Shown piece after piece: positions 1 to 32,491 of a stretch of DNA of 64,000 nucleotides; within the stretch, counting starts at the first letter, position 1; every line of letters begins with the position of its first letter. The notes below the pieces were generated by a model that was not told the DNA's origin, ran no database searches, and was given only the letters and a program-made list of their open reading frames with translations. The translations under genes and the position numbers were made by a program. This stretch comes from a virus. Where the stretch lies: positions 1 to 64,000 of the IMG/VR virus record IMGVR_UViG_3300028840_004170; one strand, 5' to 3'.

Positions 1-11
1 CACGAGGGGTC

Positions 12-434
12 TTGATCAATCGATTTAACAGGGGCAAAAAGTTCCAAGATGAACGCTCGTTAGATCAGATGATTGAGGATGTGCCACGGACTCTATATAG
101 AAGTGAGCAGGCACAAATCAATCCTCAACGATTTTTCCAGATGTCCCACCAACTAAATCAATTTGAAACATGGCTCTCAGAAAATGACCCTGAACTTATG
201 CCATACTATGAGATGTTGAAGGAAGGATATAGCTACAATCAGATATGTAAGAAGCACAAAGTTCCTTCGTACACGATACGAGATCGGATCAAGAAAGCTA
301 TAAAAGACTTTCAGATGGTGATCTTCCCCCTTAGTGAGCTGAAAGTTGGTGGTGAAAAGACAAGAGTCAAAATGGTTAGTTTAGAAGAGAGAAGTGACAC
401 ACACTTTGGTAGAAGGTTTATTCTTCTGACTTGA
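12..434 (+). CDS. Small HTH protein, sigma-region-4-like; 5' end uncertain
   Basis: A 140-residue protein read from a TTG at position 12. No in-frame stop lies between it and the window edge, so the real start may be upstream. Residues about 70-98 form a helix-turn-helix: the segment YSYNQICKKHKVPSYTIRDR resembles sigma region 4 and response-regulator HTHs (turn around KHKVPS). The type of domain is shared with the two regulators at 10.3-11.7 kb. It runs rightward and its last 17 bases overlap the end of the leftward chaperonin gene, so the pair is convergent. Probably a DNA-binding regulator; the target is unknown. Confidence 0.5.
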   Translation: MINRFNRGKKFQDERSLDQMIEDVPRTLYRSEQAQINPQRFFQMSHQLNQFETWLSENDPELMPYYEMLKEGYSYNQICKKHKVPSYTIRDRIKKAIKDFQMVIFPLSELKVGGEKTRVKMVSLEERSDTHFGRRFILLT

Positions 435-1986
435 CTATAGCAGCCTCAGTAGTTAGTAAAAGACCCCCTATAGACACAGCATTCCTTAAAGCTTCAATCA
501 CTACATTTGCAGGATCTAACACAGTATCCAGATGTTCAAATTGTCCTGTTTGGGCATTGAAACCCCAGAAATAATCATCATTCTTCATAAGCTCCATAAC
601 AACTTCAGAGCCATCTTTCCCAGCATTCTCAGCTATTTTCCGTAACGGTATTTCAAGAACCTTACGAATAATATTGAACCCTGGTTCTTCACCTTCAAGA
701 CATAGCTTTGTATCGAGCATAGAACCTGATCTGAATAGAGCTACCCCACCACCAGGCAACACACCACTATCTACAGCAGCCTGAGTAGCATTCAAGGCAT
801 CTTCAACACGAGCTTTCTTTTCTTTGAGTTCAATTTCTGTAGCAGCACCTACATAAATGACCCCCACACCACCCACTAACCTACCTAACCGGTCTTGGAA
901 CCTTTCAATGTCGAACTCACTCCATGCTGACCTGATCTGACCTTTGATTTCATGCATCCTTTGCTCAATCTGATCCATATCCCCCTTAGCACCAATGATT
1001 AGAGTGTCTTTCCTGGTGATTACAACTTTATCTGCTTGTCCCAGGTCAGAAATAGTTAGGTTGGGAAGAGCTATTCCGAGGTCCTTGGTGGCAAATGTAG
1101 CCCCCGTCATGATTGCTATGTCACTGATCACATCTCTTTTCTTATCTCCCACACCTGGACCTTTAATAGCACAACTGACAAGAATTTCTTTACGGTGATT
1201 AAGAATTAAGGTTTGGAGAGCTTCCTTGACTACATCATCTGCTACGATTAGTAATGGTCTGTCAGTTTCAGCTACCTCATTGAGCACATTAGCCATAGTA
1301 TGGAGACTTGATATTTTCTGGTCCGTAACCAGAATATAAGGTTTCTCCAACTCTACCTTGACATCATCTTTCAGGAAATCAGAGGAAAGATACCCTTGAT
1401 CTATCTTGATCCCTTCGATGATCTTCAGTGAAGAGTCAATAGATTGGGATTCCTCCACTGTAATCACCCCATCTTGCCCTATCTTGTCCAACGCTTCAGC
1501 AATCATACCTCCAATTTCTTCATCACCATTGGAAGAAATAAGAGCTACTTGATATATATCTTTGGGGTCTTTGACTTGCTTTGTTTTCTCTCTAAGATCC
1601 TTTACAACTAGATCTACAGCTCGTCTCATTCCAGCACGGATCATATTTGGGTCATGACCTGCTACAACTAATTTAATACCTTCTTTGACAATGAACTGAG
1701 CTAGTATTGTAGCAGTGGTAGTACCATCTCCAGTAGTATCAGAACTTTTAGATGCCACTTCACGAATCAACCTACATCCCAAGTCTTGGAACTTGTCTTC
1801 CAGTTCTATCTCCTTAGCAACAGTCACACCATCCTTAGTGACCGTTGGGGTAGCAAAACTCTTGTCATATATAACATGTCTCCCCTTTGGGCCAAGAGTG
1901 ACTCCCACAGTCTTAGCAAATAAGTCAATTCCTTCAGATATCTGTGATAGAGCGTCTTGAGAGAATTTGATTTCTTTAGCGGACAT
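418..1986 (-). CDS. groEL: GroEL-family chaperonin (Cpn60)
   Basis: A 522-residue ATP-dependent protein-folding chaperonin, full length for the family except for the C-terminal tail. The nucleotide-site motifs are intact: TLGPKGR near residue 30, TKDG near 50, GDGTTTA near 87, and EKKARVEDALNAT with its catalytic Asp near 390, followed by GVLPGGG. Apical-domain sequence GYLSSDF matches the region that binds substrate and GroES. The GGM-repeat tail is absent; the protein ends AAIVKSEE. The start is an ATG with GGAGG six bases upstream. No GroES-like gene is visible in the window. It probably folds a phage protein such as the capsid protein, either alone or with host GroES. Divergent from the HU-like gene. 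Confidence 0.95.
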   Translation of the reverse strand: MSAKEIKFSQDALSQISEGIDLFAKTVGVTLGPKGRHVIYDKSFATPTVTKDGVTVAKEIELEDKFQDLGCRLIREVASKSSDTTGDGTTTATILAQFIVKEGIKLVVAGHDPNMIRAGMRRAVDLVVKDLREKTKQVKDPKDIYQVALISSNGDEEIGGMIAEALDKIGQDGVITVEESQSIDSSLKIIEGIKIDQGYLSSDFLKDDVKVELEKPYILVTDQKISSLHTMANVLNEVAETDRPLLIVADDVVKEALQTLILNHRKEILVSCAIKGPGVGDKKRDVISDIAIMTGATFATKDLGIALPNLTISDLGQADKVVITRKDTLIIGAKGDMDQIEQRMHEIKGQIRSAWSEFDIERFQDRLGRLVGGVGVIYVGAATEIELKEKKARVEDALNATQAAVDSGVLPGGGVALFRSGSMLDTKLCLEGEEPGFNIIRKVLEIPLRKIAENAGKDGSEVVMELMKNDDYFWGFNAQTGQFEHLDTVLDPANVVIEALRNAVSIGGLLLTTEAAIVKSEE

Positions 1987-7330: not shown

Positions 7331-9196
7331 TCAATCAAAATCGAGAATCATCCCACCTGATTGGATTTCCAAGTCAGACTCTTTTTGAGGTACTTCATCA
7401 ATAGAGAAGTTTTCCAACCCCATGTTTTGAATCTCAAACTGATCCAATACAGACTGGTATGACATCACATCGATAGGCTCCAAAGATTCAGTGCTATTTC
7501 TCGATAACACTTCATCCTGCTGTGCTTTCTTATCAATATATGGCACAGAAGCTACCACTTGCTTGTTATATTTCTGGCAGAACCCATCTGAATTAGCTGT
7601 GCATGTTTGACAGGCTTTCATAGCCTGGACATATTTTGTACCACGAGTACGATGGATTTTTGACCCTTCATCACAAGAGGCATATACTGAAGGTTCTACA
7701 TAGTAGACACCCATGAGACCTTGTTCAGAAAGAACTTCCTTCAAGTCTTCTTTCACCTTTGCCAGACTATCCATACCAAATTTGAACCTCAGTAATTCAT
7801 AAAGGTCGTCACCATAGAAACCTTCATTCATCTTAGCTATTGTGTATGCTCTCACTTTTTTCCTCAATACGGTGTGTTTCTCAGCCGTGATAGGGTTATT
7901 AGCATACTCTTCAAAGTTAATCCCTTCCAAGACATTGCTTGAGATTTCAAATTCACCAAGGTCTGTGATAGCTTCTGTAGAAATAGCACCTTCTTCTTGA
8001 AGCTGTGGAAGGGAGCTAAGTTTGGACAATGTTTGACGCACACCATCAGAGTCCATTGATTCGATGCGAGATAGAATTTCTCCCACATGAACATTTGTAA
8101 TTTGACCCTTATTCAAAGCTACTTTAAGAGCTTCTTTGACTACAAGGTCGTCACTGTAGTCCATCTCTTTCACTATGTAACGACCCAAGACTTTGCACTT
8201 ACCTGCCTTTTGATCATAATGATCACAAGCCTTGGTAGAGACAACAAATGGAGCTGTATTACCTACTGAGTCAAGGAAGGTCTTTGCTTTTTTGCAATCA
8301 CCCTTCCAAAGATCCAGATTGACATAAAGATGTCCAAATAGTCCCTTTTCATCTACTGCATATTTCTGGTAAGACACAGTGCCTTTGTAATCTTCAAGGT
8401 CAGGCTCTACTTCAGCCAAAACTTTATGGGCAATCTTGGCTGATAAGATCAAGTCTTCTCTTGATACAAATTTGTCAGCTTTACGATATGTCTTTGGCAG
8501 TACATTTGCCCCCCGAGCAACTCTTTTCTTTTCAGTAGGAGATGTTCTGAAAGCTGTCTTAAGAGCTTCTTTGACTGTCTTGCCAGACTCTACTAATTGA
8601 ACAGGATCTACACCTTTTTCACGGGCCAGGTAGGAACGATAATGTTCCAATGTCTTTGCATTATAAGGAACCTTATCTACCAGTTTCTTCTCATAGGATA
8701 AGCAGATACCCTCACTGTTTTTCACACATCCAGCACATTTCTTTTTTGACCTAAGATATAGAGCCTTAGAGCAATGCTTCTTAATGAGGTCTTGACCCTC
8801 ACCATTCTGACATTGAGGGAACAATTTTGAATCTATATAGACTCGACCAAAAACGCCCTTCTCTGCAAGAACTCTCTTGATCACATCTACACTAGCTTCT
8901 ACAACTTGCTTGGAATAAGATGACTTGATAGTATCCATCAATTTAGTATCAGGGTCATCACGCAAGAGTCCGTAAAGAAGGAGACGTTTTAACTCCTTTT
9001 GCTGACCTTCAATGTCTTCTACAATCTCTTTACCAGTCTCAATCATCTCTTGATTAGGAAGAAGTCGGAAACCTGGAGAAGTCTGTAACTCCATCAAACT
9101 ATGGTTCTCACTAGGTACTGCTGAGCTGGAACCTCTCTCTAACCACTGATGATCAACAGGCCCCTTTACAGGTGTATCCTTGTCATAAACTTTCAT
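7331..9196 (-). CDS. Protein with three copies of a Cys-containing domain
   Basis: 621 residues from the ATG at 9196 (AGGAG nine bases upstream). A GTG six bases earlier is in frame but too close to that site. Three related units lie at roughly residues 114-178, 284-347 and 493-553. Each opens G(V/L)(F/M)G-x-x-Y and closes near V-x-x-V-P-Y or a variant. Units 1 and 3 carry five or six Cys with a C-x-x-C pair (KKCAGC, KACQTC) and a later GxC. Unit 2 keeps fewer Cys and the late GKC. The linkers are helical. Probably metal-binding modules, or possibly disulphide knots. No family is named with confidence. It lies just upstream of the terminase genes, so a packaging or virion role is plausible. 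Confidence 0.7.
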   Translation of the reverse strand: MKVYDKDTPVKGPVDHQWLERGSSSAVPSENHSLMELQTSPGFRLLPNQEMIETGKEIVEDIEGQQKELKRLLLYGLLRDDPDTKLMDTIKSSYSKQVVEASVDVIKRVLAEKGVFGRVYIDSKLFPQCQNGEGQDLIKKHCSKALYLRSKKKCAGCVKNSEGICLSYEKKLVDKVPYNAKTLEHYRSYLAREKGVDPVQLVESGKTVKEALKTAFRTSPTEKKRVARGANVLPKTYRKADKFVSREDLILSAKIAHKVLAEVEPDLEDYKGTVSYQKYAVDEKGLFGHLYVNLDLWKGDCKKAKTFLDSVGNTAPFVVSTKACDHYDQKAGKCKVLGRYIVKEMDYSDDLVVKEALKVALNKGQITNVHVGEILSRIESMDSDGVRQTLSKLSSLPQLQEEGAISTEAITDLGEFEISSNVLEGINFEEYANNPITAEKHTVLRKKVRAYTIAKMNEGFYGDDLYELLRFKFGMDSLAKVKEDLKEVLSEQGLMGVYYVEPSVYASCDEGSKIHRTRGTKYVQAMKACQTCTANSDGFCQKYNKQVVASVPYIDKKAQQDEVLSRNSTESLEPIDVMSYQSVLDQFEIQNMGLENFSIDEVPQKESDLEIQSGGMILDFD

Positions 9197-9413
9197 CTTC
9201 ACCCTCTCCTACTATTCTTTCAATGGTGTATGAACCATCATCGTTTTCATTAATAGACCAGAAAGCATCATCAGCTTCACGAACTAAGAGATTCTTACCT
9301 ATTCTGGTAAATCCTTTCAGCTTGTCTACTGAGGCAACTTTCATTGTCTCTTTTTTTGTCAAGAAACTGGTTAGGTCATCACTTCCAGACCATGATATTT
9401 GATCGAGATCCAT
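9183..9413 (-). CDS. Hypothetical small acidic protein
   Basis: 76 residues; its 3' end overlaps the next gene. The centre reads KLKGFTRIGKNLLVREADDAFWSINEND, a beta-rich segment, and the C-terminus is acidic. No family recognised. It is cotranscribed with the Ig-like gene upstream and the Cys-domain gene downstream. Confidence 0.6.
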   Translation of the reverse strand: MDLDQISWSGSDDLTSFLTKKETMKVASVDKLKGFTRIGKNLLVREADDAFWSINENDDGSYTIERIVGEGEDESL

Positions 9414-9421
9414 TATCTACC

Positions 9422-10309
9422 TCACAGTGATATTGTAAGATTCACATTGATATCAATTGGTGAGTTGGAAGCCACAGGATCAGAAATCCTGATCAAACCG
9501 ACATAAGAACCAACTGCCATACCACTGATATCTACTATGACAGACATAGCTATTGCTGGGTCTGTATCAGACATTGGCCCACCACTGGTGGGATTTACAG
9601 AAAGCCAACTAGAACCAGTCACTACTTGCGCTGTCCAATTTAAGATAGACGTAGCAGGACCAGAGTTGGAAACACTCAAAATTTGTACTGGTGGGTTAGC
9701 TCCATTAACAATACCAGCAAAGTTAAGGTCTGTAGCTGGTAATATCTCTATTTCAGGTCTTGGGAGAACCGTGAAATTGATATCAATAGTTTGAGGTGTG
9801 TTTGAAGCTCTATCATCAGCAACTTCAATAGTACCTACATATGACCCAGCACTCAAACCTTCAACATCAACTGATATTGATACAGTCTCTTCTTCATCTT
9901 TAGCTATATTACCAACACTATCGGGGGTACTCGAAATCCAGGTTTCGTCTGGAGTAAGCCCCACACTCAATAAAGAGCCAAAGGAACCTATATTAGATAT
10001 CACAACATCTTGAGCATCGGGGTTATCACCTGTCTCAGTAGCCTCAAAATTAAAGGTTGTGTTATCAAGAGAAATCGTTGGTACATTCTCACCAAGGATT
10101 GAATCCATAGAAGACACAATATCTCTAACAACTTCTTCTGGTAGAGGGATGTCTTCAAGAAAAGCACCTTGAGGTGTTTCAATACTCATGACATATAGGT
10201 CATTTGTAAGATAGAGATTATCTACCTTAATCGTATATGAATACGTACCCTGTGATGTCACAGTCTCAAAATGAAATTTTTGAGTTTGTAGTCGTTCACT
10301 GACACTCAT
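9422..10309 (-). CDS. Protein with two Ig-like (BACON/ASH-type) repeats
   Basis: 295 residues. After an N-terminal beta-rich domain of about 85 residues come two repeats of about 100 residues. Each ends with the same signature (LSAGSYVGTIEVADDRASN..., MAVGSYVGLIRISDPVASN...). Each also carries a BACON-like core (WISSTPDSVG, SSWLSVNPTSGG). Such domains bind glycans or decorate virions. The unusual point is location: it sits on the leftward strand between HTH regulators and the packaging genes, not in the rightward virion operon. Its ATG overlaps the stop of the upstream regulator (TAATG). No signal peptide. Confidence 0.7.
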   Translation of the reverse strand: MSVSERLQTQKFHFETVTSQGTYSYTIKVDNLYLTNDLYVMSIETPQGAFLEDIPLPEEVVRDIVSSMDSILGENVPTISLDNTTFNFEATETGDNPDAQDVVISNIGSFGSLLSVGLTPDETWISSTPDSVGNIAKDEEETVSISVDVEGLSAGSYVGTIEVADDRASNTPQTIDINFTVLPRPEIEILPATDLNFAGIVNGANPPVQILSVSNSGPATSILNWTAQVVTGSSWLSVNPTSGGPMSDTDPAIAMSVIVDISGMAVGSYVGLIRISDPVASNSPIDINVNLTISL

Positions 10310-10911
10310 TAATTGGCCTCTGCCGACATGAGGACATATCCCTTATTATGATTCCATTGAGGTAATATGACCTCTTTCAAAATGTTAAAATTTTTACTTA
10401 TCTCATCGAATATATAGAAGTAAGGATCTTTATGGCTTGGTTTTTTCTTGAGCAAATTGAGATTCTTAAAAAATCTATGACGAACTAATCCTTGAGAGAG
10501 CCCTAATTGCTCAGCAACCCATGATTGACATGTTGTTTGGTACATACCCACCAATATGTCTACATCTAAGTCACTCATAATCTTACTTAGATCTTGTTGC
10601 ATTTGTTTTTCTGATATAGCTGGGAGGGAAAGGAGGAATTGAATTCTCTTGACAGCTTTCTTCAATCGATAACTAACTGCTGCCTGGGTACACCCAAAGA
10701 TTTCAGCAATGTCTGATTGCTTTTTATTCACGTCAAAATATAGAAAAACAAAATCAGCCTCTAGATCAGGCAATTTATCCATCAGAGGTTTCACAGTATC
10801 CATAGATAAATTATGAAAAAAAGATGCAGTCCTGGTCTGTAATGCATCCTCAGTAGAAAAGCGGCTTTCTATTTCCGCTGGATCTAAAGATATTACCTGT
10901 GAAGATCTCAT
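10309..10911 (-). CDS. Sigma-region-4-like HTH regulator, copy B
   Basis: 200 residues with two helix-turn-helix segments. The first spans about residues 65-95 (KKQSDIAEIFGCTQAAVSYR, like sigma region 4/LuxR-type HTH). The second is near 125-150 (WVAEQLGLSQGLVRHRFFK). A conserved C-terminal block follows (DPYFYIF, SKNFNILKEV, LPQW). Paralogous to the gene at 10993-11739. It lacks sigma region 2, so it is not a complete sigma factor; more likely a transcription regulator or a region-4-only specificity factor. AGGAGG lies 6-7 bases before the ATG. It is the first gene after the internal promoter and heads the packaging operon. Confidence 0.8.
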   Translation of the reverse strand: MRSSQVISLDPAEIESRFSTEDALQTRTASFFHNLSMDTVKPLMDKLPDLEADFVFLYFDVNKKQSDIAEIFGCTQAAVSYRLKKAVKRIQFLLSLPAISEKQMQQDLSKIMSDLDVDILVGMYQTTCQSWVAEQLGLSQGLVRHRFFKNLNLLKKKPSHKDPYFYIFDEISKNFNILKEVILPQWNHNKGYVLMSAEAN

Positions 10912-10992: not shown

Positions 10993-11739
10993 TCAGGAGA
11001 CGTGGAAACTTGAGAAAGACATATAGAATAATATAGATATTGATCGAAGTTTCATCATGAGAGATACTGAATCATGCTCTTCTACCGACAAAATACTGAC
11101 CGGCAAGCCAACATAACTAGCATCGTTCCCATCCTCCAATATCACCATCTGGTCTTCCACCTCCTTGATATTAAATATTTTACCAGAAGGTACGTTTACC
11201 AGCAAGTGGTTCTTACGAGTCCATTGAGGTAGGGAAACTTCTTTCAATATATTGAAGTTTTTACTTAGAGAATTGAAGATGTAAAGATATGGGTCCCTCA
11301 GATTCTTTTCAGTATCCAAGGTACGAAGACCTTTAAAGAACCTATGCCGTACCAAACCTTGGGATATATATAGACTATCAGCTACAGAGGTCTGGCATGT
11401 GGTTTGGTAAAGCCGTACAAATATCTCTACATCCAAAGGGTCCAAAACAGAAGCTAGGACCTCTCTCATTTGTGGCTCTGGTACATCAGGTATACTCAAA
11501 AGAAACTCAATACGTTTCAAAGACTTTTTGATGCGGTAACTAATCGCTGCTTGAGTACATCCAAATATATGTGCTATGTCTTTTTGTTTTTTGTTTTTAA
11601 CGAAGTACAAATAAAGAATATCAGCTTCAAAATCTGGTAATCTAGTAAGACATTTATTTAGGAAATCATCTGACAATTTATCACAATCCAAATTCAATTG
11701 GCTTATTATTATGTTCTGTAGATCTGATTCATCTATCAT
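10993..11739 (-). CDS. Sigma-region-4-like HTH regulator, copy A
   Basis: 248 residues from the ATG at 11739 (AAGG eight bases upstream; a GTG at 11748 is also in frame). It shares the double-HTH architecture of copy B: KKQKDIAHIFGCTQAAISYR, SVADSLYISQGLVRHRFFKG, and the same DPYLYIF/SKNFNILKEV/LPQW block. It then adds about 70 residues with a small beta-rich domain (LLVNVPSGKIFNIKEVEDQ) and a hydrophobic end. Evidently a tandem duplication with divergence. It follows the NusG-like gene, pointing to a transcription-control cluster. Confidence 0.8.
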   Translation of the reverse strand: MIDESDLQNIIISQLNLDCDKLSDDFLNKCLTRLPDFEADILYLYFVKNKKQKDIAHIFGCTQAAISYRIKKSLKRIEFLLSIPDVPEPQMREVLASVLDPLDVEIFVRLYQTTCQTSVADSLYISQGLVRHRFFKGLRTLDTEKNLRDPYLYIFNSLSKNFNILKEVSLPQWTRKNHLLVNVPSGKIFNIKEVEDQMVILEDGNDASYVGLPVSILSVEEHDSVSLMMKLRSISILFYMSFSSFHVS

Positions 11740-11744
11740 CACAT

Positions 11745-12245
11745 TCACCTTTTTGATAAATTAAAGGTCGGGATGTCAATCAGTATCTTCAGAGACTTCA
11801 ATTCAATTAACACTGAAGCTATAGATTTATCTATGTCAATAATAGTCCCAGGAAGGTCTTTATACAAACCACTTCGTATTGTCACCCTATCCTTTTTCTT
11901 GAAATTTGAAGTTAAAACAGACCTAAATTGTGTCTTCAGATCCTTCACGTAAGAGTCGTCCACTGGAGACACTCTTCTTTGGGTATTACCCTTTATCTGC
12001 TGGTCTTCAGTCAGCAACCGCTTGATGTACTTTGTGCCTTCTAATTGAAACAACTTATGAGGTGGGGTGTTGCTAATATCTATAAATATGTAGCCCTTAA
12101 CTAATGATAAGTCTAGACCTTTTTCATTTTTTAGAAATGGAATGAAGATATCTACTTCACCAAGGGAAGATTGGATTTCTTTTTTCAGGCGGTCTGTATC
12201 CTCCTTTTCACCCCAACTTGTTAATTCAAATACAGCCCATGCCAT
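11745..12245 (-). CDS. NusG-like transcription elongation/antitermination factor
   Basis: 166 residues from the ATG at 12245 (GGGGAAGA upstream, just after the DnaX stop). Residues 1-85 fit the NGN domain: a start MAWAVFELTSWGEKED like NusG's MxWYvv, then DIFIPFLKNEKG, LVKGYIFIDI matching the family's fPGYvfv, and KYIKRLLT. Residues about 115-166 form a KOW domain: RVTIRSGLYKDLPGTIIDID. NusG paralogues such as RfaH bind RNA polymerase and suppress pausing or termination. Next to two sigma-like regulators, a role in reading through the long phage operons is a reasonable inference. Confidence 0.75.
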   Translation of the reverse strand: MAWAVFELTSWGEKEDTDRLKKEIQSSLGEVDIFIPFLKNEKGLDLSLVKGYIFIDISNTPPHKLFQLEGTKYIKRLLTEDQQIKGNTQRRVSPVDDSYVKDLKTQFRSVLTSNFKKKDRVTIRSGLYKDLPGTIIDIDKSIASVLIELKSLKILIDIPTFNLSKR

Positions 12246-12249
12246 GTTT

Positions 12250-13563
12250 TTATCTTCCCCATGTACTAGCAAATCTCTTCTTGAAGGCTGAAGCACTCAT
12301 ATTTACGGCTGTAGTGCTAACTTCAATCTTCTTTGGAGTGTTCTTACGTGTCGGTTTATAACCATCGTTTCGTTTTTCAGGATTTATCCCAGCATGATCC
12401 ACAGGGGTAAGATATTCAGGGTCATTATCCCCCACGTCTTTTGGTAGAGGTTTGGATTTGGCTGTTGATGTAGCTTTAGAGGCTGGACGTATGTCAGTAG
12501 ACATACTCTGAGCTTCTGTAGTGTAACCACGATGTAGCTTCTCTATAGTCAACAGAACCTCACATATTAACATGGAACGATCTAGAAACCTTAAAGATCT
12601 ATTAAATGAAACCATGAATCTCTGAACCAATTCTATATCAAACTGTCCCAAGATTGCAACTCCTTGGTTTAGATCAAAATAGTTGGGTACGATCAATCTT
12701 TGATGGAGATATTGTAGATGAACAAGATTCTCAAGGATGTTAGAGTATATGTCTTGAGGAGATAATTTGAACAACATCTCCTGGATCAAGGTGAGTGTTT
12801 TAGCCTTATCATCAGACAGTATAGATTCAATGAGACCCAATATCTCAGTGGACCACCCAATACCTAGATAGTCCTTTACGTTCTGAGTCGAAATACCACC
12901 TATCTTACTCACTTGCTCCAAAGAACTGATAGCGTCCCTAACATGACCTTTACTATGGCTCACAATCCATTCTAAGGCTTCATGCTCGTACTCAAATTCT
13001 TCCTGCTTACAAATCAACTCCAATCGATCCGTAATGACCTGTGAAGGTATCCTCTCTAACTGTAACAGCTCACATCTGGACCTTATAGCAGGACGCATTT
13101 TTCTGAGTTCTGTAGTACAGAAGATACCAATTAGTTTCCTATCCTCAAGAGGCTTTAGTAGAACATCTTGACTATCTTTACTCATACGGTGAGATTCATC
13201 AAACAGAATGATTTTCTTCCCACCAAAAAGATTGTAGGATAGATTATCGACCGTAGCACGAACCCAATCAATGGTACCATGACCAGCAGCATCTCTTTCT
13301 TCGAAATTGAGGTGGTCTTCATTCATGAAGTTTTTACATGAATCACAGGTATTGCAAGGTTCATTTCCCTGACGGTTCTGACAAAGCATAGCTCTAGCAA
13401 AGATTCGAGCTAATGTTGTCTTACCACTCCCATGTGGTCCAGAAAAGACATATGATGTTTCCTGGTCTGTACCACCTTCCAACCTGGACTGTAGCACATT
13501 ACGGATCTTTTCCTGGCCCAGCACATCACTGAACTGCAACGGACGATATTTTAGGTCAAGCAT
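12250..13563 (-). CDS. dnaX: DNA polymerase III gamma/tau-like clamp-loader ATPase
   Basis: 437 residues. It starts with the family hallmark YRPLQFSDVLGQEKIRNVL. It has Walker A GPHGSGKTT (42-50), zinc Cys at 61, 70, 73 and 76, Walker B LFDESH (120-125), sensor-1 region IFCTTE, and the trans-acting SRC motif (162-164). AAA+ lid and oligomerisation domains follow to about residue 350. A basic, Pro/Ser/Thr-rich linker and short tail end the protein, far shorter than bacterial tau. With the delta and delta' genes at 29.3-31.0 kb it would form a bacterial-type clamp loader. Its ATG overlaps the stop of the upstream gene. Confidence 0.9.
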   Translation of the reverse strand: MLDLKYRPLQFSDVLGQEKIRNVLQSRLEGGTDQETSYVFSGPHGSGKTTLARIFARAMLCQNRQGNEPCNTCDSCKNFMNEDHLNFEERDAAGHGTIDWVRATVDNLSYNLFGGKKIILFDESHRMSKDSQDVLLKPLEDRKLIGIFCTTELRKMRPAIRSRCELLQLERIPSQVITDRLELICKQEEFEYEHEALEWIVSHSKGHVRDAISSLEQVSKIGGISTQNVKDYLGIGWSTEILGLIESILSDDKAKTLTLIQEMLFKLSPQDIYSNILENLVHLQYLHQRLIVPNYFDLNQGVAILGQFDIELVQRFMVSFNRSLRFLDRSMLICEVLLTIEKLHRGYTTEAQSMSTDIRPASKATSTAKSKPLPKDVGDNDPEYLTPVDHAGINPEKRNDGYKPTRKNTPKKIEVSTTAVNMSASAFKKRFASTWGR

Positions 13564-14081
13564 TATGCACTAGCCTCTACTAACTGAGGGGATGTGTTAT
13601 TCCCTTTCTCTTTCTTGATATCAACACTTTGGTCTCCATCAACCTCATCAAGATCAAGAACTTTGACATTACGACCAAACTTCTTCAAGTCTTCATGCCA
13701 GAATCCATAGGTGCTGATCACCTCTGAGAATTCTTGGATGTCAGGATCTCTCATTTTGTAGATATACTCATTGGTTTCTTCATCAACATCTACAAAACAA
13801 TAGCAAAGATAGTGATACAATGCTGCTTCTCTTTGACGTGGATTCAGCTCTTGCCAACCATCAGCACCTAACTCAATGATGTAATGACAACCATCCAAAA
13901 AGAAATTCTGCATAGGAGAAGCTTTCTTTGTCTTACCAAGAACCAACTTCCCTGCCTTCTTAGAGCATTTCTCTTTCATGACGTAGACAATCTTGGCATC
14001 AACTAACTCAGGGGCTCTCTTGGCAATGATCCCCTCTGCCATTTCCTTCACTTCCTCTGAGTACCAATACTCTGTAGCCAT
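13563..14081 (-). CDS. Metallopeptidase-like protein with altered metal site
   Basis: 172 residues. The layout matches the phage putative metallopeptidase family: a helical start, an IVYVMKEKCSKKAGKLVLG strand region, HYIIEL, then a QREAALYH helix. In the family that helix carries an H-E-x-x-H-type site (as I recall it, roughly DHELCHC). Here it reads YHYLCYC (residues 89-95), so the catalytic Glu and second His are both Tyr. This suggests a non-catalytic, binding-only protein. The acidic tail is probably disordered. It lies between the primase and DnaX genes. SD AAAGGAG before the ATG. Confidence 0.6.
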   Translation of the reverse strand: MATEYWYSEEVKEMAEGIIAKRAPELVDAKIVYVMKEKCSKKAGKLVLGKTKKASPMQNFFLDGCHYIIELGADGWQELNPRQREAALYHYLCYCFVDVDEETNEYIYKMRDPDIQEFSEVISTYGFWHEDLKKFGRNVKVLDLDEVDGDQSVDIKKEKGNNTSPQLVEASA

Positions 14082-32463: not shown

Positions 32464-32491
32464 ATTATACGGATTCAAACTCCTTTGTCTA
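32464..32491 (-). promoter_or_regulatory. Strong leftward sigma70-type promoter
   Basis: On the minus strand TAGACA (32491-32486; 5 of 6 to consensus), a 16-base spacer and a perfect TATAAT (32469-32464). Predicted start near 32457. It would transcribe the structured region and then the whole leftward replication arm, including the first gene at 31890. Confidence 0.6.

Follow-up and report, generated by a model that had tools for sequence, protein, structure and literature searches.

A NusG-family protein encoded between clamp-loader and sigma-like genes in huge phages

A 166-residue protein encoded by a huge phage belongs, on the evidence of profiles and a structural model, to the NusG family, and it adds a phage branch to the only transcription factor family that is universally conserved. 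Because its gene always lies between clamp-loader and sigma-like genes in dozens of giant phages, the protein is probably a core part of the phage takeover of the host transcription machine. Phage proteins labelled as NusG- or RfaH-like were already known from databases, as was PHROG 6386 as an antiterminator; what is new is a monophyletic phage NusG branch in a fixed dnaX - nusG-like - sigma-like cassette. Little is known about how genomes of 400-600 kb are run in huge phages that lack an RNA polymerase (RNAP) of their own, and a single-copy, always-linked cassette of NusG-like, sigma-like, and clamp-loader genes provides a concrete, testable answer for their transcription. The nusG-like gene is also a marker for this huge-phage lineage.

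The window, i.e. the whole stretch of 64,000 nucleotides analyzed here (positions 1 to 64,000 of IMGVR_UViG_3300028840_004170), is a 99.997% match to the 358,038-bp IMG/VR contig IMGVR_UViG_3300017963_000188, and its source is thus a jumbo phage of at least 358 kb. The features used below are as follows.

1..434 (+), C-terminal end of a protein with sigma-70 region 2 (PF04542, 2.1e-7, over the cut-off)
7331..9202 (-), 623-aa protein; LR745208.1 has a relative with 29% identity on this side of its cassette
9422..10309 (-), BACON/Ig-like-domain protein (BACON_2, 3.9e-5, just under the cut-off), overlapping the end of sigma-like B
10309..10911 (-), sigma-region-4-like HTH protein B (PF04545, 3.6e-9), a tandem paralogue of A, 53-55% identical
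10993..11748 (-), sigma-region-4-like HTH protein A with a duplicated HTH (PF04545, 1.4e-9; family alignment)
11745..12245 (-), NusG-like gene, 166 aa plus stop, ATG at 12245
12250..13563 (-), DnaX-like clamp loader subunit of 437 aa (PF13177, 1.6e-25; phrog_5846, 3e-51), directly upstream of the nusG-like gene
13563..14081 (-), phage metallopeptidase-family protein (PF18894, 8.6e-24), upstream of dnaX
32464..32491 (-), sigma-70-like promoter match TAGACA-16-TATAAT, the best ahead of the leftward unit and a consensus match only

The nusG-like ATG begins 4 bases past the dnaX-like stop and is preceded by a Shine-Dalgarno-like GGGGAAG, while the nusG-like stop is overlapped by the gene for sigma-like A, whose likely start is the ATG at 11739 (GTG alternatives at 11742 and 11748). 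The product (MAWAVFELTSWGEKE...LVKGYIFIDI...; ORF 11745-12245, minus strand) consists of an NGN domain (residues ~1-114) and a KOW barrel (~117-166). HTH proteins A and B next to it are genuine. The two HTH units of the sigma-like protein are homologous to each other by hhalign, and a profile search with the first finds SigF and FliA, in their region 4. Residues ~175-251 of protein A form a C-terminal tail of ~70 residues that is absent in the other 30 aligned members. The region-2 protein at the left edge, with 224 aa and a gene start ~240 bases ahead of the window, is separate from both A and B. The BACON/Ig-like protein carries repeated Ig-like units, which is unusual within a replication/transcription operon. 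An Rfam search returned no matches.

Taken alone, the window protein gives weak matches to the KOW profile (E=0.0012, under the cut-off) and to PHROG 6386 "transcription antiterminator" (E=0.0016), and among NCBIfam models it matches LoaP best (5.6e-6) and nusG less well (2.9e-4). Once relatives are included, its assignment as a phage-encoded NusG-family protein becomes unambiguous at the level of profiles and modeled fold. Specifically, NCBIfam nusG is matched by all 30 aligned family members (best 5.6e-9), PHROG 6386 by 29 of 30 (best 3.4e-9), Pfam KOW (PF00467) by 23, and Pfam NusG (PF02357) by 19, and the family profile finds NusG in the PDB at 2.1e-8 together with solved Spt5 chains. A single-sequence AF2 model with a pLDDT of 50 was replaced by one built with 30 relatives (pLDDT 89.6, pTM 0.70), in which a beta-alpha-beta NGN domain is followed by a 5-strand KOW barrel with strands across residues 120-165. 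All 31 Foldseek matches to the PDB at E<=0.001 are NusG, RfaH, or Spt5 chains. Global TM-scores are modest (~0.4), as one would expect of two domains with a flexible link, and the KOW domain alone superposes on that of Mycobacterium tuberculosis NusG with a deviation of 1.1 A across 54 columns. These results bear out the preliminary description, which had recognized an NGN and KOW protein beside HTH regulators and proposed structure prediction against NusG and RfaH as a check.

The window protein nevertheless stays far under the cut-offs of the models for known functional classes, i.e. 20.7 bits against 135.7 for the housekeeping NusG equivalog (TIGR00922), 26.6 against 125 for LoaP (NF033641), and 23.7 against 100 for UpxY (NF033644). 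Identity is 16% to E. coli NusG and 13% to RfaH, and surface chemistry may therefore have changed. The residues predicted to bind the RNAP clamp helices are kept: Y52 and F54 are invariant in the alignment and correspond to RfaH Y54 and F56, a Y-x-F pair on the face thought to contact the beta' clamp helices. At the position of the NusG Rho-contact loop, I164-F165-G166 (PMC7593976), the family has L/F-R/K-S instead, so that an absence of Rho recruitment is predicted from the alignment. The HTT antipausing motif of RfaH is not recognizable in the NusG-like protein.

A scan with the single protein yielded only the window's own phage, in two contigs. The first relative was reached via a match to the neighboring dnaX in LR745208.1, a 485-kb phage, where it occupies the same position and where a metallopeptidase-family protein likewise lies upstream of dnaX (PF18894, 2.4e-19). 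Profiles of three families (NusG-like, sigma-like, and DnaX) were then run against viral contigs, and a few loci were added from genome collections. The NusG-like protein is found at 89 loci, which form 51 clusters at 90% identity, on contigs of up to 619 kb, and each of 12 huge-phage records searched carries exactly one copy. The earlier remark that few phages carry such a factor holds for phages at large, with a clear relative in only one of 50,697 phage records in a translated search, but is misleading for the huge-phage lineage, where it occurs in all 12 records. The gene is under purifying selection, with dN/dS values of 0.03-0.16 in most close pairs. In a tree with cellular NusG and RfaH, the phage proteins form a monophyletic branch (support 0.92, few cellular sequences); we give this tree little weight because of the small cellular sample and its poor internal resolution. 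Parts of the cassette also occur on contigs binned into MAGs of Actinomycetota, Altiarchaeales, an uncultured bacterium, and Verrucomicrobiota (L114-L117), probably huge-phage contigs that were mis-binned or co-sampled.

Gene order is fixed. With the NusG probe alone, dnaX lies upstream and the sigma-like gene downstream at all 42 loci, and the same trio is recovered at 25 of 25 loci from the sigma probe and 18 of 20 from the dnaX probe, the 2 exceptions being a contig end and a distant dnaX. The three probe sets share contigs, and the cluster count (51) is therefore the better measure of independence. At eight loci (L052, L053, L054, L070, L071, L085, L095, and L099) the NusG-like domain comes first in frames of 604-667 aa, and a Pfam scan of five of these (L054, L071, L085, L095, and L099) reveals in every case a fusion to a PolA-type 5'-3' exonuclease (PF02739, 1.5e-30, and PF01367). 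The dnaX of LR745208.1 (L024:9995-11881) contains an intein-like insertion directly after the conserved LFDE motif.

We also searched for the polymerase on which such a factor would act. A profile search of 10 huge-phage records finds no RNAP beta' Rpb1_2 domain, and the 358-kb contig contains neither an Rpb2_6 domain nor a DFDGD motif. A phage-encoded RNAP was rejected as the target, with PF00562, PF00623, and the DFDGD motif all without a match in these sequences. Given the absence of these core families, the target is presumably host RNAP, although a divergent phage RNAP could go unrecognized by such profiles and some records may lack parts of the genome. Long polycistrons are plausible, since the longest tightly packed run of the 358-kb contig extends rightward over 57 kb and 27 genes with no intergenic gap of >40 bases; a leftward run of 19 kb, from the nusG-like gene to 31 kb, is equally free of such gaps.

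Sigma-70-like promoter matches overall are not above those in shuffled sequences, and no late-promoter motif upstream of core genes is evident by eye. The 358-kb contig has a strong promoter-like motif, TTTAAAA-N12/13-C[AG]GTATA, with ~28 strict matches that are often followed by a TAGGAGGTG Shine-Dalgarno sequence (loci L004-L021; e.g. L004:2129-2155, L009:1601-1627, and L012:15425-15451). One copy precedes the sigma region-2 gene. This early-type motif has 0 matches in the window and is nearly absent from the replication/structural core.

Our preferred explanation, which we consider reasonably probable, is that the phage NusG paralogue takes the place of host NusG on the host's RNAP and, jointly with the sigma-like protein, helps it to transcribe long phage units processively. 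The NGN domain would dock on the beta' clamp helices of elongating host RNAP, displacing host NusG, and the protein would suppress pausing and termination, while a KOW domain without the Rho-contact loop would fail to pass the polymerase on to Rho. The product of the next gene, the double-HTH protein resembling sigma region 4, would act jointly with it, probably by binding the beta flap and/or phage DNA, and the two together would commit host polymerase to long phage units, i.e. those for replication and the structural core. Our analyses document the protein's fold and family, its single copy in each genome, its fixed operon, the purifying selection on it, and the lack of the two RNAP core families searched; RNAP binding, the sigma-like partnership, processivity, and Rho insensitivity we infer.

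The invariant linkage to the clamp-loader gene would also fit a factor coupled to replication, in which the NusG-like and sigma-like proteins join replisome components to RNAP, either for late activation only on replicating DNA or for the management of conflicts and R-loops. Phage T4 offers a parallel: gp33 and gp55 with the gp45 clamp activate late genes only on replicating DNA, and the late coactivator gene 33 adjoins 59, dsbA, and rnh, which encodes a 5'-3' exonuclease/RNase H. Together with the natural fusions that several lineages show between the NusG-like protein and a PolA-type 5'-3' exonuclease, these links keep replication coupling as the main rival, yet we regard it as unlikely; neighborhood and fusion mean a link, not contact, no clamp-binding motif is established, and a shared operon may merely mirror the timing of expression. 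A broader version, to which we give only tentative credence, is a hitherto undescribed, lineage-defining complex in which host RNAP is refitted with the phage's NusG and its duplicated sigma-region-4 factor and is physically tied to the clamp loader and 5'-3' exonuclease, which would make transcription of the phage core dependent on replication. If true, this complex would stand as an independent parallel to the clamp-activated late system of T4 in which the elongation factor is replaced, not just sigma.

Two further readings concern what the protein does once on the polymerase. It could act as a decoy in host takeover, filling the NusG site on host RNAP and uncoupling host transcription from ribosomes and Rho, so that host genes would be shut off or deregulated with no specific gain for phage elongation; retention of the RNAP-binding tyrosine and loss of the Rho-contact loop (PMC7593976 for the loop) agree with this, but the gene is conserved in a replication operon beside the sigma-like gene, not among early accessory genes, and the early-type promoter motif is missing from its region, which makes a decoy improbable. 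The preliminary description had instead envisaged antitermination of the roughly 30-kb leftward unit, i.e. an operon-specific factor of the RfaH/LoaP type recruited there by a DNA or RNA element. NusG paralogues often adjoin their target operons (PMC7819879), LoaP is the best NCBIfam match, and the RfaH-like Y-x-F pair is present. However, the LoaP score lies far below its cut-off, and the ops-like pause element proposed as a check occurs only once in the window, with one mismatch, where 3.1 matches are expected, and is thus not above chance. Intrinsic terminator-like sites on the leftward strand likewise lack clear enrichment in the window scan (20 matches against 11.6 expected in the first 20 kb, mostly on the plus strand). 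The gene sits mid-unit throughout the lineage, not as a leader, and dozens of phages share this dnaX-nusG-sigma-like order. The longest packed run is the 57-kb rightward block. As such, a role in elongation or antitermination is still favored by the anatomy of the protein alone, while a service specific to the leftward unit is not borne out and seems very improbable.

The family shares with NusG/Spt5 (TIGR00922, matched by all 30 members) the NGN and KOW architecture, the clamp-helix tyrosine, and the beta-barrel KOW. It departs from housekeeping NusG in its low equivalog score and identity to the E. coli protein, its replaced Rho-contact loop, and its place in a phage genome beside sigma-like and clamp-loader genes. 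Like LoaP, UpxY, and RfaH, it would be an additional NusG that serves a particular set of genes, and it has no NusG-type Rho loop; both LoaP and UpxY rank near the top of its NCBIfam matches, with scores far under both cut-offs, and the Y-x-F on the polymerase-binding face recalls RfaH. No ops element stands above chance in the window, and the one AF2 model shows the KOW domain as a beta barrel instead of the alpha-helical hairpin that autoinhibits free RfaH, a result still compatible with a fold switch. A fixed sigma-like gene partner is not described for those paralogues in the literature consulted.

The T4 late system (gp33, gp55, and the gp45 clamp) is similar in belonging to a phage without its own RNAP, in its region-4-like HTH factor, and in transcription genes that adjoin replication and 5'-3' nuclease genes, but nothing in the T4 late set corresponds to the NusG-like protein. 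Lambda N, lambda Q, and Xp10 p7 are phage factors for processive host RNAP, as the NusG-like protein may be; to our knowledge, none of them is an NGN/KOW protein. Lambda N works with host NusG and brings none of its own. PHROG 6386 and the NusG- and RfaH-labeled phage proteins in BFVD have the family or fold in common with the window protein, yet these are database names without operon context or function.

Term searches find no NusG, KOW, or antitermination term in a comparative survey of jumbo phages (PMC7824862), and no NusG or KOW protein in general surveys, which mention sigma factors, gp33, and AsiA. A survey of RfaH evolution mentions no phage (PMC7593976), and no paper joining "jumbo phage" and "NusG" was found, subscription papers being outside the search.

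Two other features of this phage were noted. A phage GroEL (window 418-1986, minus strand; phrog_5725, 2.9e-142) is encoded in a leftward unit shared with the portal and terminase genes, and the 80-160 kb region of the 358-kb contig (L008-L011) holds an array of ~50 tRNA genes along with a tmRNA whose tag is ANDNALPMAA.
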